Source of the DNA: Mytilus galloprovincialis
Taxonomy: Eukaryota; Mollusca; Bivalvia; Mytilida; Mytilidae
Assembly (NCBI RefSeq): GCF_965363235.1
Contig: NC_134840.1
Location: 86,610,916-86,674,915 of the forward strand
Direction of reading: 5' to 3'
DNA length: 64,000 nt
This document shows positions 1,375 through 63,627 of this stretch, piece by piece; the first letter of the stretch is position 1, and every line of letters starts with the position of its first letter. The notes under the pieces were generated by a model. It ran no database searches. It was not told where the DNA came from and saw nothing but the letters and a program-made list of their open reading frames with translations. The position numbers and the translations under genes are program-made.

Positions 1375-2450
1375 CAATATTAACTAAGTATTTTAAACGC
1401 TCCATTAAGGAAAAGTAAAATAACAAAAATGCACAACTCCAGGGAAAATTCAAAAAGGAAAAGCCCATATCAAATCAAAAACTCAACCACATTAAACGAT
1501 GGAAAACAACTCATATTCCTGACTTGGTACAGACATTTCCTTATGTAGAAAATGGTGGATTTGAACCTGGTTTTTCTAGCTAGCTAAACCTTTTACTTTT
1601 ATTACACTCCCTTTGGTATCTTTTGTCCCTTTTTTATTACATTCTCATAAAATTCCATATATTTATTTATTAACAAAGAGGTGATCACAAAAATACTGAA
1701 CCCCGATGAAAATTCTTTGTAAACAAAACCTTTCGGAAGTTTTGGTTGTTAATGCTTTTCAACTTTTGGCTCTTTTTGGATGGTCTTTTTCTTTTTTGTT
1801 TGGAGCTTCAGTGATGAGTCTTTGTTTTAGACAAAATGTGAGTCTTGCGTATACAATTTAAATTTTGGTATCTATCATGAGTTTATTACTTTAACGTTTT
1901 ACTGAAATTTTATATTTCTTGAGGAATGAAAAAAGTAAAATCACAAAAATACTGAACTCTGAGAATAATTCAAACCGGAGAGTCCATAATCAAATGGCAA
2001 AATCAAATGATAAAACACATCAAATGAATGGATGACAACTGTCATATTTCTGATTTGGTAAAGGCATTTTATTACGTAGAAAATAGTGGATTGGAACTGG
2101 TTTTATAGCTAGCTAACCCCCTCACTTGTATGACAGTCGCAGCAAATCGATTGTAACTGATATCAAATACTAGTAATGGAAAACACTAGTACATGATAAA
2201 ATTGATAGGTATTGAACCACACGTTTTCCTTGTTTTTAAGTGAAAAATCAACAAGTGAGAGTAAAGAAGTGTTAGTGTCTCGTTTGAATTGTTTTACATT
2301 GTCATATCGGGGCCTTTTATAGCTAACTATGTGGTATGGGTTTTGCTCATGTTGAAGACTGTAAGGTGACCTATAGTTGTTAATGTCTGTGTCATTTTGG
2401 TCTCTTGTGGACAGTTGGTCATTGGCAATCATACCACGTCATCTTTTTTA
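1375..2450. repeat. Mosaic of mytilid dispersed repeats, two related copies
   Basis: Positions 1381-1620 and 1925-2140 are diverged copies of one another: both have a CACAAAAATACTGAACTC-like start, then tggatgaCAACTGTCAT, then a GGTTTTATAGCTAGCTAA-like stretch. Related sequence is seen at 40720-40850, and in reverse at 38190-38420. The piece 2290-2440 matches, in reverse, the repeat at 23083-23165. A decayed hammerhead-type repeat sits at 1735-1885. No gene is supported. Confidence 0.6.
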
Positions 2451-3322
2451 TACTTTCATAAAGCAATTGGTTTTTATTAATTGTGCTAACGGTTTAATAC
2501 TGATTACAAAATTTGGGATGTTTTGTGAACCACCAGATGTATTGTGCAGTTGAAACCTTATAAGAAATGAGATAGCAGAAACATGGCAATTTTGGAGAGA
2601 TGTGCTTCCCGTTTTTGTCTATCCATGCAGTACAGAGGTAATGAAGATTAAAAAAACGACATAAATTCGTGGTAACATAGCTGCTTTACGCTTTTCTAAT
2701 AATATATAAAGCCTTTATATACAATCTAGTTTTAGGAAAGCAAAAAATAGGAAGATGTTGGTTGAAATAACCTTCTGTAGACTGGTTTTCCCAGAACAAT
2801 CATTTAGAGCTAAGCACTGTTGTAAATATATTGATCGACGCCATTTGTCTTTGTAAGATACAGCCAAGAACACCTATCATTATTATCAATGGGCCTAAAA
2901 GTTCAAATAAAAGGACAGCAATTGAATAACAAATTTGACACTGTGTGCGCATGATGACCCATACTTTGGGGTAGTATTCGGAGAGTTTTAGCTTCCAATT
3001 TGTTTTACCAGATTATCAGCCTCATATTTGTGATGAGTTTAAACTGGTACACTAAGATCGAAGACCGCAAAATCTTGTCACTACTGAGTTAAGATACCGA
3101 CACATCTTATTGGTTAAACTATTCGTAATAACACAAAACGTAGGTTAACTTTAAAGCTCATTGACAAGGAACACAAACGTAAAAAACCCACTCTTCAAAT
3201 GTCACCTACCACTCGTATGTTATTCTTCGCATATGTAAAATTTCAATTGGTTTCAGCGTTTTCCATTCAAGCATTCCCCATTTTATAATTAAGGCAGTCT
3301 AAGTAAAGGCAACAATGGTAAA

Positions 3323-3720
3323 AATGGTAATAAATTATAATCCTGGTACCTTTGATAACTATTTACACCACTTGGTCGATGCCACTGCTGGTGAACGTTT
3401 CGTCCCGAGGGTAATCCAGCCCAGTAGTCAATACTTCGGTTTTGACATGAATAACAATTATGTGGTCATTTCTATAAATTTTCTGTTTACAAAACTTTAA
3501 ATTTATCAAAAAATTAAGGATTTTCTTATCCCAGGCATAGATAACCTTAGCCGTATTTGGCACATTTTTTGGAATTTTGGGATCCTCAATGCTCTTCAAC
3601 TTTGTATTTGTTTGGCTTTATAAATATTTTGATATGAGCGTCGCTGATGAGTCTTATGTAGACGAAACGCGCGTCTGGCGTAATAAATTATAACCCTGGT
3701 ACCTTTGATAAGTATATACC
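3323..3720 (+). repeat. Retrozyme-like repeat, just over one monomer of about 351 bp
   Basis: The words AATTATAATCCTGGTACC and TTTGATAACTAT near 3333 recur almost unchanged near 3687, so the block is slightly more than one repeat unit. The unit starts with the sequence that follows the ribozyme cleavage site and ends with a complete hammerhead motif. That is the form expected when a ribozyme-bounded RNA circle or concatemer is copied into DNA. Related units are at 6243, 36180, 36707, 40852 and 43300. Short open frames on either strand here are by-products of the repeat. Confidence 0.75.
3637..3682 (+). ncRNA. Type I hammerhead ribozyme, core intact
   Basis: The three invariant parts are in order: CTGATGA at 3644-3650, GAAA at 3664-3667, and the cleavage triplet GTC at 3673-3675. 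Stem II is GTCT/AGAC closed by a short loop. Stem III is the minimal ACGCGCGT type known from schistosome satellite hammerheads. Stem I pairs GCGTCG (3638-3643) with TGGCGT (3676-3681), including wobble pairs. Self-cleavage is expected after position 3675. Such motifs are established in bivalve retrozymes and in Penelope-like elements. Confidence 0.85.
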
Positions 3721-4223
3721 GCTGTTTACAAGTCATAAATCGATTGATATAAAAAATCCGGGTGACAAACTTAAACCAAGGGAAACACATCAACTATAAG
3801 AGTAAAAATAGTTTTCGAAATAATGCGTCCATGTAGGGTAGTATGTCTACCTGTGGACTGTTGTCAGTTTAATAGCATGAATTCAGAATGAAAAAAAAGA
3901 GTAGATTTCAAGATAATACATTTCATTATATTAATGTATGAAAATCATCTATCCATTTATAATTGTTCTTCCTTCGTCCAGTCGTACAAACTTAAAAATA
4001 TATTGTTTTTCCTCCAAAATATAAAATTATGCCACGGGACGGAAATTAGTTGCGAACAGTTATTTACTAATACTAGCATTTCTCGTAAGTTCACTAATGT
4101 TAAATGAACATTTGAAGAGTGGGTTTTTAACGTTTATGTTCCTTGTATCAATGAGCTTTAAAGCTAACCTACGTTTTCTGTTTTTTTACGAATATTTTAA
4201 CTAATACGATGTGTCGGTATACC

Positions 4224-4496: not shown

Positions 4497-5010
4497 GGGA
4501 GGTTTGGCATGCCACAAAACCAGGTTCAACCCATCATTTTTTTCTTTAAAGGATATCCTGTACCTGGGAACAGTATATCTATATCAGTTAATATATATGT
4601 TCCTGCCTGTACCAAGTCAGAAAAAATGGCCATTGTTATATTATAGTTACATTTTAACGTTATTTCTGTTGTGTCGTTTGTTTCCTCTTATATTTGAGTG
4701 TGAATTCGCATTGCTTTAAGACGTGTCACGGTACTTTTCTATCCCAAATTCATGTATTTAGTTTTGATGTTATATTTGTTATTCTCATCGGAGTTTGTCT
4801 AATGCTTAGTTCGTTTCTGTGTGTGTTACATTTTAATGTTGTGTTTCTGTTGTGTCGTTGTTCTCCTCTTATATTTAATGCGTTTCCCTCAGTTTTAGTT
4901 TGTAACCCGGATTTGTTTTTTTCTATCGATTTACGAGTTTCGAACAGCGGTATACTACTGTTGCCTTTATTTGCCACTGGACACTAAGCAACCAACAATC
5001 AATCAAATAT
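4497..5010 (+). repeat. Dispersed mytilid repeat with AATC-type 3' tail
   Basis: The block carries the words GGCATGCCACAAAACCAGG, GGTATACTACTGTTGCC and ACACTAAGCAACCAAC, and ends in AATCAATCAAA. I remember this 3' end, with its short AATC repeat, as very common in mussel DNA. Similar tails are at 40185-40215 and 49480-49510. A tetranucleotide tail fits a retroposed SINE or LINE 3' end. Open frames in several phases across it look fortuitous. Confidence 0.55.
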
Positions 5011-5650: not shown

Positions 5651-6242
5651 TAATCTTCAGTCTTAGGTCAAAAGTTTTTCACCAATCAGTAATTTCCCTT
5701 TTAATTCATGTTGAAACACATATTTGGTAAAACAATCTATAGTTTTCTATTCTTCATTGAATACAATACAGTTTCTTAAAATAATTCTGAAATTTATTTA
5801 TGATTTATGTTTAGTAATTCAGATGACAAAATATGAATTTCATATAAAGAAAAAAAACTAAGAGACGTCATCGAAAAATCAATGAAGTGATAACAAACTT
5901 AATTCAAATAGTTTGGGGGTAAACATTGCTGCAAGTTTTGTTTACCCAAAATCGATTTTACATACATTGTATATCCATATTTAGCATATTAATCTATTGC
6001 AATAAAAAATCATACTATCTAATAAAATTGGTAGATTTAGCTAACAAAGTCCTTATATTTGTATAAAGTAACATTCGTTTATAGTGGAAAATTGTTTTAA
6101 CTTTGAATAAGCTACAATTAAATATTATACACCTATTGACTGGGTGTGAGGGTAATAGCAAGTTTGTTATCCCTGAGATACCAACTATTGCTCGAGGCGA
6201 ATATTTATAATAAAAAAATAATAATAAAAAAAAAAACACATT
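5651..6242. other. AT-rich spacer, nothing recognised
   Basis: Only A- and T-rich sequence with short homopolymers is seen. No gene, RNA or element end could be supported. Confidence 0.5.
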
Positions 6243-6468
6243 GAAATACTAAGGCTTTTCTACCTCAGGCATAGATTATCTTAGCTGAATTTGGCAAAAC
6301 TTTTGTGAATTTTGATCCTCAATGCTCTTCAACTTCGTACTTTATTTGGCCTTCTTAACTTTTTTGGATTCGAGCGTCACTGATGAGTCTTTTGTAGACG
6401 AAACGCGCGTCTGGCGTATATACAGAATTTGGTCCTGGTATCTATGATGAGTTTATTTCCATTAGGTG
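6243..6468 (+). repeat. Retrozyme-like repeat, second subtype
   Basis: The block starts at GAAATACTAAGGC, passes through TCCTCAATGCTCTTCAAC, carries a complete hammerhead, and ends GGTCCTGGTATCTATGATGAG. It shares the ribozyme and the upstream half with the repeat at 3323-3720 but has a different 3' part. The same subtype appears in reverse at 43296-43540, and as a remnant at 14820-14925. Confidence 0.7.
6374..6418 (+). ncRNA. Type I hammerhead ribozyme, core intact
   Basis: CTGATGA is at 6380-6386, GAAA at 6400-6403 and GTC at 6409-6411, with stem II GTCT/AGAC and the short ACGCGCGT stem III. Stem I pairs GCGTCA (6374-6379) with TGGCGT (6412-6417), a better match than in the copy at 3637. 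Cleavage is predicted after 6411. Confidence 0.85.
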
Positions 6469-16735: not shown

Positions 16736-19700
16736 GTTTGTTTTGGTTTCGTTTTAGCCTGTAAATACGTTGTATTGTGACACAGTATAATGCATTTTTA
16801 TTAGGATTTTTTGCTTTCGTGACTTGTTTTACGCAATTAGTTTAAGTATGCTTTTTTTATTTGGGTACCTTTTACATGCATATAGAAGATCACACCAAAA
16901 GCATCTACCAAGGCAGGTAGATTGATTAACAAATATGATTTTATGCTAAATGGTGTAAAACTAGAGTGTGTTAAAACATATAAATATTTGGGTATACATT
17001 TTTGTGCATCTGGCTCCTTTACAGTAGCCCAGGATGAATTGTATAAAAAGGCTCTAAAAGCCTATTTTAAGTTATCTAAAGATTTTTTATCCTTGCATCC
17101 TTCAGTCAAAACAAGCATGCATGTTTTTGATCATACCATCAAACCCATCTTGCTATACAGCTGTGAGATATGGGGTGCCTTTAATCCTATGTCATCTAAA
17201 TATAGAAATGGAATTTTTTCATTTGACCATATTTATTCTAAATTACCTGCTGAAAAACTTCATACTAAATTCTGTAAATTTATTCTTGGAGCTCCAAAAA
17301 AAAGCACCAATTTTGCAGTATTAACTGAGTTGGGAAGACTACCAATATATTTTAACATGATTAAAGCAATGACTAAATACTATTACAGATTAGAAAAGTC
17401 AGACACTAACTTTCCATTGTTATATAATGCATTTATAGAATCAAAGAAATTGTATGAGTCAAAGAAACCATCATGGTATATGTCATCTGAAAAACTTCTT
17501 TCACTGATTAATAATTATCAAATATCCTCAGACATGGCTAAACCAATTGACAACAGAAAACTAAGAATTGCCATGTTAAAAGATTGGGAAAAGAATCTCA
17601 AAACTCACTCAGAAGGAAAACTTTGCACATATGTTACGTTTAAAGCAAATTTTGGTTGTGAAAAATATCTTGATATTGTTAAAAAATTTGAAGATAGACG
17701 GAGTCTAACAAGATTTCGCATATCTGCTCACCATTTACTTATAGAGAGAGGTAGATATAGTAATACTCCCCGACACAATAGAGTATGTAAGAGATGTTGT
17801 AGTAATGAGGTCGAAGATGAAACACATTTTCTTTTTAACTGTGATAGTTTATCAGATCAAAGGAAAGACATGATAACAATGATAAATAATTGCTGCAAGA
17901 ATTTTCAATATCTTGACCCTAAACAAAAACTGATATGGTTAATGAATAATGAAGATGAGAATTTATTATCAGAATTATGCATGTTCATTAAGAAATATGA
18001 AAAGTTTTAATGGGATTTATTTCCCTCTACTACTTGTAATTTGAACTTTATATTTTCTCCATAGTGAGTTCTAGAGCACCGTCCCTTGATGAATATTGTC
18101 CAGTAGCAATGTTAACCCTTGCTATTGTGCATTAGTCATGAGGAGAATCACTATTGGAGTAATCTCATGTATCTGTAGCTAGTTCTGAAGGATCCCCCCT
18201 TGATGACCTTTGCATTGTTGTGATGAAGTCCCTCACTACTGTGCACTGGTTATGAGGAGAACTACTGCAGATTGAGATACTATATTCCCGGTTCTATTTT
18301 TGCTATTTTTTTAGTTTCCATATTTTAAAATAAACTTAATATCATATCCTTTTAATATTAAATCGGCCTCATTGCACTCAATGTCTCTTACTATAATTAT
18401 ATCCTACATTACTCATATTATCAATTTATTATTTGTGTATTACTTATTGTGTATTTCACTAATGTTTATATAATCATTGTATTATGATGTTTTTGTATCT
18501 TGCCTGACAAGGGCCCATGATTGGAAAAATAAAATAATGTCTAATGTCTAATGTCTACCATGTCTACAGAGTCAGAGGTCAACATATGCCAGTTCAGGTT
18601 GTTGTAATTATGAACTATAACAAATAACTTCAAAAGCAACATTTTATCTCATCCTATTTTGTCTCCATTTACTGATCATTACACACTTTCCCATTCAATT
18701 TTGACAAAAAAGTGAAGCAAAATCTCTAGGTCAATTGTCAAAGATTCGAAACTGGTAATATACTATACAATACAATTTTTTTTTTTTTTAACGCATCTAT
18801 ACTTATATACTGCTGCAGAACATGTAAATCTTTTGAAGTTTTTATATTTTAGTCTATTTTATGTGGCAATAAAGATCACTGTAAGCAAAAAAAAATAAAC
18901 TGTACATTTGTATGCATTCATAATAGAAATGTACAATCACACACAACAGATAAGCAAGCATGATGAGCCTGTAGGAAATCAAATTAAATGTACACATACA
19001 TTTTGTACATGTATAAAAAAATATTGACAGATATGTTATAAAGATTTAATATCAAACTGTTACATGTATATAAATAAAAATCAAAAGTTCATTTTTGAGG
19101 TAATTATATTTAATTGTATATAGTTTTAGACTTGTTAGATGACACAAAGAAATAAATGACATCTATCATCAACTTTAAGAATAATCTTGTATTTGTTTTA
19201 ATTTTCAATATTTTCCCAATCTGTGACATGTTCAAAGTATAAATGTATGTTCCGCAGGCAATATAGGAAAGTTGTACTTACATAAGCCATATCTATAGAA
19301 ATAGGATGTAAACATTAATCCACCATTCTGCCTCTGATGAAGGTCCTTTTTGGACCGAAACCGGTCAGGCTATGAAACATCACCAGGCGCTGTTAATTAT
19401 GTGTATTGGTATATATACTATATTTTTATAAATGTATGTTCCCTAGCACAAAATTTTGTTAGAAACTGTCGATTATTATACTTAATAAGCTGTCATAATG
19501 CTAACTGACTTTAATTATTTAGTAAAACATTGTATTTTGTACTCATGCTTTTATGAAACAACTTTTGAGATTTAAGTTATTAATTTTGTCATTGTTTGTT
19601 TAATAAGGTTGATAGCTTTTCAGAAAATACATATTATAAGAAATTGTCACATTTGTAACATTTTATTCACAATGTGAAGCAAGAATAATTCTATCATTCA

Positions 19701-35934: not shown

Positions 35935-36180
35935 TATAAGATAACAACTGTCATTTCCCTTACTTGGTATAGGACATTTGAAAAAAAAAATGGTGGGTTG
36001 AACCTGGTTTTGTTGGCTAGCCTAACCTCGGGGTTTTATGTCAATGTTAAATATAACATTCAAATGACAACATTACATGACAGGACTACAGTACAAAAAA
36101 AGAAAGAACATTCAGAAGAGAGAAATTCACAAATAAGCAATACAATACATTTTGACATGCTAATAGTTATTACAGGTAGC
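35935..36180. repeat. Mytilid repeat inserted in the RTE element
   Basis: Contains ACAACTGTCATTTCC, GGTGGGTTGAACCTGG and ATAACATTCAAATGAC. Related to the family at 1925-2140. Confidence 0.5.
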
Positions 36181-36400
36181 AGGCTTATAATTTTGATACG
36201 CCAGGCGCGCGTTTCATCTACATAAGAATCATCAGTGACGCTCAGATTAAAAAAAGTCAAAAAGCTAAACAATTATAAAGTTAAAGCGCATTGATGACCC
36301 AACATTTAAAAAAAGTTGTGTCAAATACGGCTTATGTTATCTATGCCTGGGATAAGAAAATCCTTAGTATTTAAAATAATTCATACTTTTTCAAACAGTA
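36180..36400 (-). repeat. Retrozyme-like repeat copy, ribozyme inactivated
   Basis: On the minus strand the CTGATGA and GAAA boxes are present. The cleavage triplet reads GCC instead of GTC, and the first stem II pair is lost. Upstream words CCTGGGATAAGAAAATCC match the other copies. Confidence 0.7.
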
Positions 36401-36411
36401 AATTTGTATTA

Positions 36412-37796
36412 AAACTAGAGGCTCTAAAGAGCCTGTGTCGCTCACCTTGGTCTATGTGAATATTAAATAAAGGACACAGATGGATTCATGACAATATTGT
36501 GTTTTGGTGATGATGATGTGTTTGTAGATCTTACTTTATTAAACATTCTTGCTGCTTACAATTATCTCTTATCTATAATGAACTTGGCCCAGTAGTTTAA
36601 ATGGGAAATGTAAGTGAAAATCTACAAATTTTATGAAAATTGTTTAAATTGACTATAAAGGACAATAACTCCTTAGGGGGTCAATTGACCATTTTGGTCA
36701 TGTTGTTTGGCTTTATAACTATTTTGATATGAGCGTCACTGATGAGTCTTGTGTAGACAAAACGCGCGTCTGGCATACTAAATTATAATCCTGGTACTTT
36801 TGATAACTATTGACTTATTTTTAGGTCTTACTTTGCTGTACATTATTGCTGTTTACAGTTTATCTCTATCTATAGAAATATTCAAGATAATAACAAAAAA
36901 CAGCAAAATTTCCTTAAAATTACCAATTCAGGGGCAGCATCCTAACAACCAGTTATCCGATTCATCTGAAAATTCCAGAGCAGATAGATCTTGACCTGAT
37001 CAACAATTTTACTTCCTGTCAGATTTGCTCTAAATGCTTTGATTTTTGAGTTATAAGCCAAAAACTGCATTTTACCCCTATGTTCTATTTTTAGCCATGG
37101 CGGCCATCTTGGTTGGTTGGCCGAGTTACCGGACACATTTTTAAAACTAGATACCCCAATGATGATTGTGACCAAGTTTGGTTTAATTTGGCCCAGTAGT
37201 TTCAGGGGAGAAGATTTTTCTAAAAGATTACTAAGATTTACGGAATATGGTTAAAAATTGACTATAAAGGGCAATAACCTCCTAAAGCGGTCAACTGACC
37301 ATTTTGGTCATGTTTGATTTATTTGTAAATCTAACTTTGCTGAACATTATTGCTGTTTACAGTTTATCTCTATCTATAATAATATTCAAGACAATAACCA
37401 AAAACAGCAAAATTTCCTTAAAATTACCAATTCAGGTGCAGCAACCTAACAACGGGTTGTCTGAGTCATCTGAAAATTTTGCAGCAGATAGATTTTGACC
37501 TGATAAACAATTTTACCTCCATCAGATTTGCTCTAAATGCTTTGGTTTTTGAGTTATAAGCCAAAAACTGCATTTTACCCCTATGTTCTATTTTTAGCCA
37601 TGGCGGCCATCTTGGTTGGTTGGTCGGGTCATCGGACACATTTTTTAAACTAGATACCTCACTGATGATTGTGGCCAAGTTGGGTTAAATTTGGCCAAGT
37701 AGTTACAGAGGAGAAGATTTTTGTAAAAGTTAACGACGACGGACGCCAAGTGATAAGAAAAGCTCACTTGGCCCTTTGGGCCAGGTGAGCTAAAAA
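36412..37796 (+). mobile_element. Helitron-like element with two core repeats of about 0.5 kb
   Basis: The 5' end AACTAGAGGCTCTAAAGAGCC forms a short hairpin in its AGGCTCT/AGAGCCT part. The 3' end is a hairpin AGCTCACTTGGCCC/GGGCCAGGTGAGCT followed by AAAAA. Two tandem core units begin TTGACTATAAAGG at about 36650 and 37257 and share most of their sequence. The first is interrupted by a 107-bp ribozyme repeat. I recognise the ends as a very common bivalve family. The minus-strand frames across it are not genes. Confidence 0.75.
36707..36813 (+). repeat. 107-bp retrozyme fragment inserted in the Helitron core, catalytic G lost
   Basis: Comparison with the second core unit (near 37305) shows a clean insertion after TTTTGGTCATGTT. 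It holds CTGATGA at 36739-36745 and GTC at 36768-36770. The GAAA box reads AAAA (G12 changed to A), which should abolish cleavage. Confidence 0.75.
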
Positions 37797-40719: not shown

Positions 40720-40978
40720 AAATAACAAAAATACCGTACTCCAAGGAAAATTCAAACTGGAAAGTCCCTGAGAAAATGATAAAATCAAAAGCTCAAACAC
40801 ATACACCAAGTGAATGGAAATCAACTGTCACATTCCTGACTATTTTTCTTATCCCATGGATAGATTACCTTAGCCATATTTGGCACAACTTTTTGGAATT
40901 TTGTGTCCTCAATGCTCTTCAACTTTGTACTTGTTTGGCTTTATAACTATTTTGATCTGAGCGTCATTGGTAAGTATT
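40720..40978 (+). repeat. Mytilid repeat followed by truncated retrozyme-like repeat
   Basis: 40720-40850 belongs to the 1381-2140 family. 40852-40978 belongs to the ribozyme repeat family but breaks off at GAGCGTCATTGG, before the CTGATGA box, so no ribozyme remains. Confidence 0.6.
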
Positions 40979-43295: not shown

Positions 43296-43414
43296 TTAGT
43301 AAATAAACCCATCATAGATCATGCTAGATACCAGGATCAATTTTGTATTTACGCCAGACGCGAGTTTCGTGTGACAAAAGTTAGACTTATCAGTGACGCT
43401 CAAATCCAAAAAAG

Positions 43415-43446
<32 letters not shown>

Positions 43447-43540
43447 GAGCATTGAGGACCATAATTTCTAAAAATTTTGCCGCCCAATTTAGATAACGTA
43501 ATCTATTCCTGAGGTAGAAATTTAAAGCCTTAGTATTTCA
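43296..43540 (-). repeat. Retrozyme-like repeat, second subtype, ribozyme decayed
   Basis: Reverse copy of 6243-6468. The first core box reads CTGATAA, stem II is disrupted, and a poly-A tract (43417-43442) interrupts the unit. GAAAC and GCGTCTGGCGTA remain. Confidence 0.65.
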
Positions 43541-43732
43541 AACATACAAAAGTTTTGTAAACATGCAGTTAATTCATAAATTGACCATATCAATGATAAT
43601 TCATGTCAGCACAGAAGTGCTGTGCTATTGGGCTGGTGATACCCTCGGGGCTCAGAGCGTGGGATAGAGGTTACGAGTGAGGTTAATTTACGAGTGTAGA
43701 AACATATTTTCCCTATTTCTAATTTTAAAGAA

Positions 43733-44318: not shown

Positions 44319-45283
44319 CTAACAATCTTTAAATGCAAGTAGGTGTCTGTAAGTTTGTGGATGAAATTGTCGAGTTCTATTGTCTGTTGGAATGAGTAAT
44401 GTTGAAGGTACAGCGACAATATGATGAACAATTTTATAAAACATTATAAGTCTGGTTTTAAGTCTGCGTTGTTGTAAGGTAGGCCAATTTAAAGTATTGA
44501 GTATGTCTGTAACGCTACTGGTGTTGTGATAACGATTACAGGCATATATAGCAGCCCGACGTTGAACCATCTCAAGTTTATTGCATTGTTCAGCAGTATG
44601 AGGGTTCCAAACCGAACAAGCATATTCTAGTTTAGGTCGGACAAGTGCTAGATATGCCTGAGACTTAATGTTTGTAATGGATGTTTTCAGATTTCTTTTT
44701 AGAAAGCCTTGGCTTTTATTAGCATTACCAATGATGTTGTTTGTATGCTGTGTCCATTTTAAGTCGGATTGCAGTGTAACTCCAAGATATTTTGCGGAGG
44801 AGACAGATTCTAGAGTGTGGCCGTGAAGGATGTAGTCGTGTTTGATGGTATTTTTCTTGTTTGAGGCAGTGAGAACTGTACATTTGTCTGGATGGAAAGC
44901 CATCAGCCAGTCTTCTTCCCACTTTGCAGCAGCATCAAGATCTTTCTGAAGGCTATCACAATCTTCTTTAGATTTGATGCTTTTGTATATGATGCTGTCG
45001 TCTGCGAACAGTCTGAGTTTACTGGATTTCAAATATTCTGGTAGGTCGTTAATATATACCAGGAATAGAACTGGACCCAGAACTGTTCCCTGTGGGACAC
45101 CAGAAGTAACTGGAGCAATGTCTGATGACTCCCCATCCAGGACAACTGTTTGTGTGCGGTTTGATAAGAAGGCAGAGATCCAGTTAAGTGTTTCATTTTG
45201 AATACCGTAGAAATGTAATGTATATAAGAGTCTTTGATGTGGGACTTTGTCAAAGGCTTTGGCAAAGTCCATAATTACAAGGT
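44319..45283 (-). CDS. LINE reverse transcriptase, C-terminal part
   Basis: Encodes MDFAKAFDKVPHQRLL, SGVPQGTVLGPVLFLVYIND, the catalytic LRLFADDSIIYKS and the thumb SAKYLGVTLQSDLKW. Downstream are YLALVRPKLEYACSVWNP and a C-terminal tail. The palm is intact here. The N-terminal half of the RT lies beyond the 162-bp MITE in another phase. The phase difference (2 bases) equals the 167-bp insertion plus duplication, so the frame was once continuous. Confidence 0.85.
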
Positions 45284-45288
45284 CTGTT

Positions 45289-45450
45289 CAGTGGCGGATC
45301 CAGGGGGGGGGGTTCCGGGGGTGCGCACCCCCCCTTTATTTTTGCCGATCAATGCATTTGTATCGGGACATATGTTTTGCACCCCCCCTGCACCCCCCCT
45401 TTGCCCTGGGTTAGCACCCCCCCTTTCGAAAATTCCTGCATCCGCCCCTG
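45289..45450. mobile_element. 162-bp MITE with CAGTGGCGGATCCAGG ends, CTGTT duplication
   Basis: Left end CAGTGGCGGATCCAGG and the inverse of CAGGGGCGGATGCAGG at the right, flanked by CTGTT (45284-45288, 45451-45455). The interior is C/G-rich (CCCCCCTTT runs). The LINE reads through the empty site exactly if one duplication and the MITE are removed. Confidence 0.88.
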
Positions 45451-45455
45451 CTGTT

Positions 45456-46366
45456 TGGGTGTTATTGTCTGAATTTGAAGCTAGTTCTTGTATGAAAGAT
45501 AGAAGTTGTGTTTCACATGATCTAGAGTGTCTGAAGCCGTGCTGAAGGTCGTATAATAGGTTGTTTTTTTCTAGGTGGTTAATTAGGTGTTTAGTAATGA
45601 CATGTTCCATTAGTTTGCAACTGATACAAGTGAGAGAGATTGGTCTGTAGTTGACTGCGTTGTATTTTTCCCCTTTTTTGTATGCAGGTGCGACATTTGC
45701 GTGTTTCCAGTCGGGTGGTATACGGCCAGTTGTAAGTGATTTCTGGAAAACAATGGTGAGGATTGGTGCCGTAATGTTTTGAAGTTGTTTTAGTACTCTG
45801 CCGCTGATGTTATCTGGGCCCGTGGCTTTGTGCGGATTGATGTTGTGTGAGAGTTTTTGTATGCCAGGTGTAGTAATTGTGAGTGATGGTATGACTGGAT
45901 GGGGACTTGGCCCTTTATCAGGCATATTATTTGCTGTTTCGGTGGTAAAGACTGATTGAAATTGCTCATTTAAAATGTCGGCTTTTTGTTTTGTATCAGT
46001 TGTTAATTGGCCCTCTTTTTTTAGGGGAGCAACTCCACTATTGTCAGTTCTGATTGATTTAATATAAGAAAAGAGTTTCTTTGGTTTTGATTGGTTGCTG
46101 TAACTTAGGTCCGGGTCATTTGTTGGAAGGTCAAGGATAATTTTTTCTATGTATGTACAATAGGCACGTCTCTGTTCTTGTTGGACTTGTTGTTTTAGTT
46201 TTTTATATTTTACTATATGCTTTTTATCCTTTTTCATTTTAGAGTACAATTTATTCTTTTTATTTATCATTTTTCTGAGTTTGTTGTGCACCCAGGGAGG
46301 TCGATGTTTATACGTTAGCATTTTATGTGGGATGCTTGTATCTATTGATTTTGTAATATTGTTAAC
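45456..46366 (-). CDS. LINE reverse transcriptase, N-terminal part and linker
   Basis: Encodes the linker (PPWVHNKLRKMINKKNKLYS), then KADILNEQFQSVFTTE, NPHKATGPDNISGRVLKQL, RIPPDWKHANVAPAYKKG and NYRPISLTCI, ending GFRHSRSCETQLLSF. These are RT blocks before the palm. Reading frames extending into the flanking MITE and Helitron sequence are artefacts. Confidence 0.85.
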
Positions 46367-47453
46367 CGGATTTTTGTGACAAAAATGTCGGTTATTGATT
46401 TGGGAATGTACGGCGGGCGGCCGGGCGGGCGGCAATCAAATGTTGTCCGTGCATTAACTCATGAACCGTTCAACCAAAGCTTTTAAAATTTTAATATGTT
46501 GTTACTGACAACTAAATGAAGGTCAAGTTCAATAATAGCGATTTTGACTTTTACCGTTCAGGAGTTATGGTTCTTGAAAGATTGAAAAATGGAGTTTTCA
46601 GTCGTGTCCGTGCATTTACGCATGAACTGTTCTACCAAAGCTTCCCAAATTTTAATATGTTGTTACTGATGACAAAATGGAGGTCAAGTTCAATAATGAC
46701 GATTTTGACCTTTACCGTTCAGGAGTTATGGTTCTTGAAAGATTGAAAAATGGTGTTTCCAGTGACGTGTCCGTGCATTTTCTCATGAACCATTCAACCA
46801 AAGCTTTTCAAATTTTAATATGTTGTTACTGATGACAAAATAGAGGTCAAGTTCAATAATGACGATTTTGACTTTTACCGTTCAGGAGTTATGGTTCTTG
46901 AAAGATCGTAAAATGGCGTTTCCAGTCGTGTCCGTGCATTTACGCATGAACTGTTCTACTAAAGCTTCCCAAATTTTAATATGTTGTTACTGATGACAAA
47001 ATGGAGGTCAAGTTCAATAATGACGATTTTGACTTCTACCGTTCAGGAGTTATGGTTCTTGAAAGATTGAAAAATGGTGTTTCCAGTCGTGTCCGTGCAT
47101 TTTCTCATGAACCATTCAACCAAAGCTTTTCAAATTTTAATATGTTGTTACTGATGACAAAATAGAGGTCAAGTTCAATAATGACGATTTTGACTTTTAC
47201 CGTTCAGGAGTTATGGTTCTTGAAAGATCGTAAAATGGTGTTTCCATTCACATTGTTGCATTTACTCACGAACCATTCAATCTTAGCTTTTCAAATTTTA
47301 ATATGTTGATACTTATGACAAAATGGAGGTCAAATTTGATATTGACGATTTTCACTTTCACCAATCATCAGTAATGGTTCTTGTGATATTGCCAGGACAC
47401 AAATAAATGTTAATAAATCCGGTTTGCTGTCGTTGTGACAGCCTCTTGTTTTT
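46366..47453 (-). mobile_element. Helitron-like element with about five 161-bp tandem core repeats
   Basis: The core unit (TGTCCGTGCATT...CAGGAGTTATGGTTCTTG) begins at 46444, 46605, 46768, 46929 and 47090, spacing 161-163 bp, with a decayed sixth unit. The minus-strand 5' end AACAAGAGGCTGTCAC carries a hairpin, and the other end has ATTTTTGT/ACAAAAAT. It lies inside the LINE between its endonuclease and RT parts. Confidence 0.8.
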
Positions 47454-48570
47454 AAATAAATCCCACATTTCATTGATAGTACTATTGTTGTTATTGTTCA
47501 TAATAGTAAGCTCTTCTAGAGTTTTTTGTAGGTCTGCTTCTATATTTTCCCAGTTTGCTTTGTCATATTTTAGTATTTTTCTGGGATGTTGTCTAACTTT
47601 TCGAAGCCAAGTGTCTGTTTCTATGTAGACGATGTCGTGGTCACTTAGTCCTAGTGGTGGGAGTGTGTTTACTTTGTTGACAGTTGTTGGATTGTTAACT
47701 AGGATTAAGTCTAGTATTCTTTCTTTTCTAGTTGGTGTATTCGGAGACATATAGTTCTAGTTGTTGTAAAGATGTTCCTTTGTCTGATGGTGGTCTGTAG
47801 TATGCGCCTACTAATAAGTTTTTACTACCAGTCATGTTTATTTGAGACCAAACTATTTCACAGTCAGTTTTAAGTTCACTTACTTCTGTGCTTATATAAG
47901 TTCTTTATTAATGGCAATAAGTACACCTCCATGACTTTGGTTATTTTTATTTGGTGGTCTGTCTGATCTATAGACATTAAATGTCTTAAATAGTTCTGAT
48001 GGAAAAAATTCATATGATGTCAGATATATTTTTGTCTAGCCATGTTTCAGTGCCTATGATTATGTCAGGTTTAGATGAATCAATTAATTGATTCAGATCT
48101 TCTTTTTTATTTCGTATCGATTGAAAGTTTATGTTAAGTATCCTGATAGGTTAATGATTTTTAGTAGTGACTTTTTGTGATGTTTTGACTTTTGGTTTTG
48201 ATTTAGTCTTAGTATCATAGGCAATGAAGATGCCTGAGGAGCACCTAAGCTGTTATTGAGAGATGTATCACTCATACTCCAGTTACTACTAGAATTTAAT
48301 GATATGCTTGATTGGTTATTGAATAAGCTAGTGGAGAAAGTTGGCATTCCACAATTTGTACATTCCCAGCTAATATTGCTAGCATTCATACACTCGTAGA
48401 TGTGAGATGGAATACTCTTGACAATTAATGTGAAACCAAGTAGCGCAGCTGTCGCAGCATAGTGCCTTTTGATTTTAAAAAAGAAAATAGACAAACTAAA
48501 GCAAAGAGATTTTAATGTTTTATCAGAGAGTTTTATTAAATAAAGGTTAATGGACCCTGTGAAATGCAAA
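47448..48570 (-). pseudogene. LINE N-terminal part: PHD-like region and endonuclease, frameshifted
   Basis: 47448-47750 reads RKERILDLILVNN, LSDHDIVYIETDTWL and ends INEMWDLF. 47755-48130 holds endonuclease sequence in shifting frames (RILNINFQSIRNKKEDLNQ, DRPPNKNNQSHGGVLIAI). 48129-48569 holds the N-terminal Cys-rich segment. It is the upstream part of the LINE at 44090-48585. Confidence 0.7.

Positions 48571-48854: not shown

Positions 48855-63627
<14,773 letters not shown>

Follow-up and report, generated by a model that had tools for sequence, protein, structure and literature searches.

Insertion ends of a hammerhead retrozyme in Mytilus galloprovincialis suggest internal initiation of reverse transcription beside a structured RNA module

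Near the start of a 64,000-nt stretch of the Mytilus galloprovincialis genome (contig NC_134840.1, positions 86,610,916 to 86,674,915; hereafter, the window) lies a short hammerhead-containing repeat, which raises the question of what sets the ends of such elements when they are inserted into DNA. A preliminary description took it for a retrozyme-like monomer bounded by hammerhead cleavage sites, as would be left by reverse transcription of a self-cleaved, circularised RNA. Non-LTR retrozymes of this mussel have been reported as 350–390-bp repeats with about 5000 hammerheads in an earlier assembly (construct DRtz_Mg353), expressed as linear and circular RNA and capable of self-cleavage (Cervera and de la Peña, 2020; PMC7229834). 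In the part of that source used here, the authors leave open which enzyme moves animal retrozymes and whether the circles are the template (PMC7229834). The family is known; the part worth following is the anatomy of the insertions and the module that accompanies them.

Copy A and its relatives

The repeat, here denoted copy A (Table 1), is an ordinary, decaying copy of the published family. The proposed composition of about 351 bp plus about 40 bp is real, in the sense that one 353-nt unit is followed by a repeated end of about 40 nt, but the last few bases of the second repeat copy belong to the flank. The front end, described as the sequence that follows the cut, does lie 0–4 nt from the cut position, but the match to post-cut sequence begins only at the fifth base (GTAATAAATT), and the preceding AAAATG has no gap-free alignment to TGGC. 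The hammerhead at the other end indeed has an intact core, but the block does not stop there, running on for 39 nt past the cut. A single hammerhead is present, that is, no ribozyme pair flanks the copy, and copy A alone should not release a circle because it has one ribozyme only.

Table 1. Features of the window that belong to retrozyme copies or their insertion sites
Feature	Coordinates	Strand	Remarks
Copy A, retrozyme insertion, 5'-truncated	3327..3714	+	Single 353-nt unit followed by the tail; 3' end set at +39 from the cut, but could lie as far as about +41
40-nt direct repeat, first copy	3327..3366	+	Unit positions +5 to +44; 37/40 identical to 3680-3719, spacing 353
Structured module, candidate reverse-transcriptase recognition RNA	3368..3456	+	Unit about +46 to +136; model R1 87.7 bits, copy A being in R1's own alignment
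Type I hammerhead, core intact	3638..3681	+	Predicted cut between 3675 and 3676
Copy A tail, post-cut sequence to insertion end	3676..3714	+	
Copy A right flank, insertion target	3715..3807	-	Other repeat, inverse-orientation copy of 4861-4954
Copy B (family 2), 5'-truncated	6233..6453	+	Hammerhead 6374-6417, intact core
Copy C, 5'-truncated	36158..36408	-	Hammerhead with damaged stems, GCC at cut
Copy D, 5'-truncated	36703..36812	+	Core GAAA changed to AAAA
Copy D empty-site homologue, same flanks without insert	37231..37380	+	Junction CATGT/TGA, duplication 0-3 bp
Copy E, old, decayed hammerhead	1727..1880	+	
Copy F (family 2), decayed	43322..43654	-	Interrupted by a T run
Copy H, body fragment	40845..40975	+	Ends where the hammerhead starts

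The covariance search proposed as a check of the ribozyme formally gives no hit above threshold for copy A, which has the conserved core of a type I hammerhead and scores 31.9 bits (E 4.5e-5 for 5.2 kb and 4227 families) against a gathering score of 34, so that the whole-window Rfam search at gathering lists nothing; among five relative loci, one (L041) does exceed the gathering score, at 36.1 bits. A structural scan of both strands recovered two hammerhead motifs in the window (3644 and 6380, both on the + strand), whereas 200 dinucleotide shuffles gave 0.015 on average. On folding, isolated hammerhead stretches did no better than shuffles in 4/4 cases, the motif of copy A included.

In size, type I hammerhead, low GC content, tandem relatives and the unit of about 353 nt, the repeat fits the published mussel retrozymes, as the preliminary description had suggested. 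The GC content is 0.358 in copy A and 0.361–0.408 in 22 related units, which are 350–368 nt long. The 86-aa frame of copy A is absent from the 22 other units (longest frames, 17–52 aa), so no circular ORF is conserved among them, and the unit holds no ORF for a reverse transcriptase with GIY-YIG; by its sequence, the retrozyme unit is not a Penelope-like element. The assignment of copy A as a non-autonomous, non-coding hammerhead retrozyme of the known mussel type is supported.

Six further retrozyme copies were found in the window at E < 1e-4, and among these only 6233-6453 passes the core scan. Copy D and its empty-site homologue lie about 500 bp apart. In the search for an empty site of copy A, the left homology extends for only about 25 nt and the alignment is poor, leaving its target duplication uncertain. 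Inverted arms at 3094-3202 and 4108-4220 (about 110 bp, about 89% complementary) surround copy A and look like a fold-back or MITE-like element that received the retrozyme. Elsewhere in the window, 57817-58149 (+) is an exon-like piece of a protein phosphatase catalytic subunit.

A 22-mer from the ribozyme has 17,985 exact matches in the 1.385-Gb genome, and its reversed control has none. We sampled 60 regions, all on contig C1, covering 85 of the 100 listed matches of this 22-mer, which spans the cut and includes bases past it. Scanning these regions and the window with up to 4 substitutions yielded 104 hammerhead sites: 30 are followed by a further unit, and the other 74 are terminal. The sequence GTAATAAA is present in both tails of copy A and was seen after 2/104 cuts, one being copy A's own. 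The same insertion was found in three blocks about 6.2 kb apart (L025, L026 and L027), which we interpret as a segmental tandem duplication; the duplicates L026 and L027 are left out of the counts of 72 terminal copies and 71 elements used below and kept in those of 104 sites and 127 copies. Exact searches outside the mussel genome, with three patterns against viral_contigs and two against genome_contigs, returned no matches.

Insertion ends and the structured module

The 3' ends of the insertions are nearly uniform. Among the terminal copies, 68/72 carry a tail to the end point of their family (46 in family 1 and 22 in family 2). The last unit-contiguous base in family 1 lies between +39 and +45 past the cut, most commonly at +41 (18/46), and agreement with the unit drops from 40/46 copies at +40 to 12/46 at +44, the corresponding values for internal copies being 22/22 and 21/22. 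The exceptions are L018, L036 and L042, which end elsewhere or are damaged, and L057, which ends a few nt early; L061, counted among the 22 of family 2, runs on for about 20 nt past the end point. Genome-wide, the unit sequence extends 10 nt beyond the insertion end in 2,594 of 10,653 exact tails and 7 nt beyond the cut in 15,164 of 20,906 matches; the contrast is rough, as the extensions compared are not of equal length or base composition. Because the first regions had been chosen with post-cut bases, a second search used the ribozyme up to the cut only. Of the 127 copies reaching the cut, 118 have a family 1 or 2 tail, 8 a family 3 tail (three of these being the L025–L027 triplicate) and one (L040) no tail.

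The 5' ends, by contrast with this fixed end, are scattered. In 71 elements, after exclusion of one further element truncated by the end of its region, the distance from the 5' end to the last cut ranges from 12 to 1726 nt (median 239); 21 are longer than one unit, 10 are longer than two, and copy A amounts to one unit plus the tail. With 5' ends taken from BLAST alignments and blurred by a few nt, 2/71 fall within 10 nt of a unit multiple, where 4.2 are expected, so there is no excess. Within 4 nt, the count is 1/71 against 1.8 expected, the one being copy A itself.

It is on the boundaries that the earlier reading gives way. A unit delimited by two hammerhead cuts would account for the front end of copy A, 0–4 nt from the cut position, but this is the element that supplies the single near-coincidence among the 71, and the continuation of 126/127 copies into the tail runs against a cut-defined 3' side; we consider such a unit very improbable. 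Cut-defined ends are rejected on the tails past the cut together with the scattered 5' ends. Nor does the boundary show that a self-cleaved circle left it, as the insert is longer than one lap and has no circle signature at its boundary. Given the scatter over the 71 elements, the front end of copy A looks like a chance 5' truncation. Growth of a tandem satellite by unequal crossing-over, without an RNA step, is hardly more credible as a source of these repeats: long arrays do exist, for instance one with at least 10 sites spaced by multiples of about 357 nt (C1:28984481-28989162), but many copies are dispersed, shorter than one unit and embedded in differing flanks while sharing one common end, and copy D has an empty site. 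This array and a second one on C1 (29329473-29333434, at least 8 sites), likewise spaced by multiples of about 357 nt, are possibly source loci or satellites.

Target duplications are short and variable. For 70 elements with tight boundaries, duplications of at least 4 bp number 21 versus 13.5 expected from mismatched pairs, those of at least 5 bp 9 versus 3.7, of at least 6 bp 5 versus 0.9 and of at least 7 bp 3 versus 0.3; a version with looser boundaries gives a weaker excess.

The fixed insertion end lies about 5–9 nt before a module of about 90 nt, the bases after the end being UUACACCACUGG. This module, which starts at +46/47, recurs with different flanks in two other tandem families of about 350 nt, represented by L010 and L050 (family 3) and by L047 and L041 (family 4). 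Family 4 was judged by eye, as were the ends of both families, which were called hammerhead-like on inspection; the family 3 and 4 motifs have no Rfam match at E up to 0.01. The motif CACTGGG of the module is found at +47 in family 1 (19/24), +53 in family 2 (6/6) and +39 in family 3 (3/3), and the common insertion ends lie at +39–41, about +44–48 and +33–34, respectively, those of family 3 coming from three independent places. The position of the insertion end thus moves with the module and is independent of the cut.

In an alignment of 32 module copies picked from 48, near-duplicates and some irregular copies having been left out, pairing is kept in 93.5% of the cells of five helices; double-sided changes affect 32 cells versus 8.0 in shuffles (0/500), and covariation is 0.158 versus 0.090 (0/500), with slid controls at no more than 0.058. 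Two of the five module-wide measures, pairs with change on both sides (5 versus 3.6) and further pair types (17 versus 17.8), are not above shuffles. A further helix, which would cross the five, reaches 91.1% pairing and has 2 cells with double-sided changes versus 0.3 in shuffles, so that the RNA may adopt an alternative or pseudoknotted fold. The model R1 built on the module also matches L013 (89.5 bits), L016 (65.9) and L041 (50.1), none of which is in its alignment, and for the module Rfam gives no match, whether in the stretch of the window that was scanned (E up to 10) or across five loci (E up to 0.01). The third retrozyme-like family, at L010:3150-4201 (-), consists of mutually identical 350-nt units with a hammerhead-like CTGAAGA..GAAATGCGCATC; stem III appears palindromic by eye in three motif kinds (ACGCGCGU, AUGCGCAU and AAGCGCUU).

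Initiation, template and enzyme

We consider it probable that copy A is a 5'-truncated insertion for which reverse transcription started internally, by the module, and ended at random. Multi-unit transcripts would self-cleave and close into circles of about 353 nt, as published for M. galloprovincialis. A reverse transcriptase supplied in trans and presumably primed by nicked target DNA would then start at one internal site, about 5–9 nt before the module, which may serve as its recognition site, and copy first the tail, then the hammerhead and then the body, possibly for more than one round, before falling off at random. An internal start with a random stop would leave the 3' end of the insertion fixed and the 5' end random, and internal, target-primed initiation is also indicated by the position of the fixed end within a repeating RNA, taken together with the random far ends and the preservation of cut junctions. 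The hammerhead would serve to make circles and would have no part in fixing where the DNA copy begins and ends. A fixed internal start beside a conserved module, independent of the cut, amounts to a testable claim on the mobilising enzyme.

A fixed 3' end and 5' truncation are generic for target-primed reverse transcription and could also be produced by a LINE acting on a SINE-like element, the RNA of which would have a fixed 3' end (+39–45) recognised by the LINE enzyme, as in SINE/LINE pairs; the window does hold LINE-type frames at 50559-53132 and 44319-47756, with RVT_1 and, in one of them, an endonuclease domain. However, in arrays the unit carries on past this end, the end follows a module that lies beyond it, the listed junctions have no common A or simple-repeat tail (a few flanks are AT repeats), duplications are mostly short, and blastn of the window with copy A returned only matches that we read as retrozyme copies. 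We regard mobilisation by a LINE as unlikely. The frame at 50559-53132 (-), open over 857 aa, has both an endonuclease and a reverse transcriptase domain and is a LINE; the frames at 44319-47756 (-), with RVT_1 and a weak endonuclease match, are split by a 161-bp tandem array (46444-47383).

If initiation is internal, as we favour, the template might be a circle or a linear multimer. In arrays with at least two complete recognised units, to which the comparison was confined, all 10/10 within-array unit pairs (five arrays; six pairs from L050) are 0.969–0.989 identical and 0/221 between-array pairs exceed 0.961. Units of these young arrays are of nearly one length, except for one of 358 nt in L050. 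Rare variants common to the units of an array number 3–9 in four arrays; L050 has 0, but there the three-carrier cut-off hides variants shared by four units. Those shared between arrays number 0.42 on average and 10 at most. A family 3 array is identical at 579/579 positions at a 350-nt shift. To us, these data favour a single template molecule for each array, a circle being the simplest case, although tandem transcripts or later homogenisation could be another source of alike units. In a wider comparison of the duplicated stretch in 18 multi-unit elements, the closest relative is in the element's own array in 9 (one tie) and not in the other 9, which tend to be older. The circularity of the template is supported by the kept cut junction and by unit homogeneity in the five young arrays, the wider test being mixed.

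Reverse transcription of uncut tandem transcripts from the internal site would yield the same outcome in DNA, and a linear multimer has been proposed as the template of PAc, an anole Penelope-like element for which the hammerhead is dispensable in vitro (PMC11167929). The 9/18 elements without a closest relative in their own array fit this route, but in the five young arrays each unit has its closest relatives within the array and lengths hardly vary, and retrozyme circles are reported to be abundant in mussel tissue (PMC7229834); on balance, we find a linear template somewhat doubtful and continue to prefer the circle.

As for the enzyme, Penelope-like elements appear to be the likeliest source, a choice that we make tentatively. 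Penelope-like elements had already been proposed by those who described the family, on the grounds that hammerheads and the tandem habit are shared and that the elements co-exist (PMC7229834). Such elements are present in the genome, with at least 147 GIY-YIG matches (150 scored of 1001 candidates), and one open frame (L072) has a C-terminal GIY-YIG over the cut-off together with RVT_1 at E 1.5e-6 and 28.5 bits, the cut-off being 29.6. Furthermore, the retrozyme shares the Penelope-like insertion habit of a fixed end past the hammerhead cut, a tail and 5' truncation. Comparison with three Penelope-like 5' pieces (L069–L071), which may exclude start sites, gave only short matches to the retrozyme; the module was not found in these pieces, and a Pfam search of them returned nothing. 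A minimal hammerhead, CTGATGA..GAAACCGGTC, which we take to be of the Penelope type, occurs in the window at 19334-19370 (+); it is non-coding, with no long open frame beside it in the 800 bases translated.

A more specific reading, which we put forward as a possibility rather than a probability, is that the module is a landing platform for a Penelope-like reverse transcriptase, with rolling cDNA synthesis from the circle, and that it is the module, rather than the ribozyme, by which mussel retrozymes of several hammerhead and hammerhead-like families are linked. If true, the missing machinery that mobilises animal retrozymes would have been found and the ribozyme would be a circle-maker only.

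Comparison with known systems

The closest counterparts of copy A are the mussel non-LTR retrozymes, which, compared by description, are alike in their type I hammerhead, length of about 350–390 bp, low GC content and tandem arrangement, and the name of the construct DRtz_Mg353 suggests a unit length equal to that of copy A (PMC7229834). The numbers differ, the exact 22-mer matches counted here standing against the roughly 5000 hammerheads published (PMC7229834). Units of animal non-LTR retrozymes in general measure 170–400 nt (350–390 in mussels) and form dimers to multimers, and their target duplications, when present, are larger than 4 bp (PMC7229834), whereas most of the duplications found here are shorter. 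In the main texts of the open literature searched, we found no description for animal retrozymes of a fixed 3' end 39–45 nt past the cut or of a structured module.

Hammerhead circles have also been proposed as intermediates of plant LTR retrozymes (PMC4918200), but these elements differ in carrying type III hammerheads in their LTRs, a PBS and a PPT and in producing 4-bp duplications (PMC7761336). The hammerhead satellites, or W-elements, of Schistosoma are similarly satellite-like repeats with some functional hammerheads, transcribed and also autosomal; the part of that source used here describes no fixed insertion end for W-elements (PMC8490949).

The Penelope-like elements differ from the retrozyme, which is non-coding and of about 353 nt, with a module that lacks similarity to the three Penelope-like pieces compared here. 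It is in the manner of insertion that the two meet. In PAc of Anolis, the cut lies at 26 and the main start at 111–118 nt of the ORF, with RNA to 172 nt needed; that is, initiation is internal, past the hammerhead, in an AC-rich stem-loop, and depends on RNA beyond the start (PMC11167929). Penelope insertions of Adineta have a 31-bp tail, duplications of 8–10 bp or none and, in one case, a microhomology junction (PMC3846280). In both, as in the mussel retrozyme, a start some tens of nt past the hammerhead cut is combined with a tail of 30–40 bp, 5' truncation and short or absent duplications (PMC11167929, PMC3846280).
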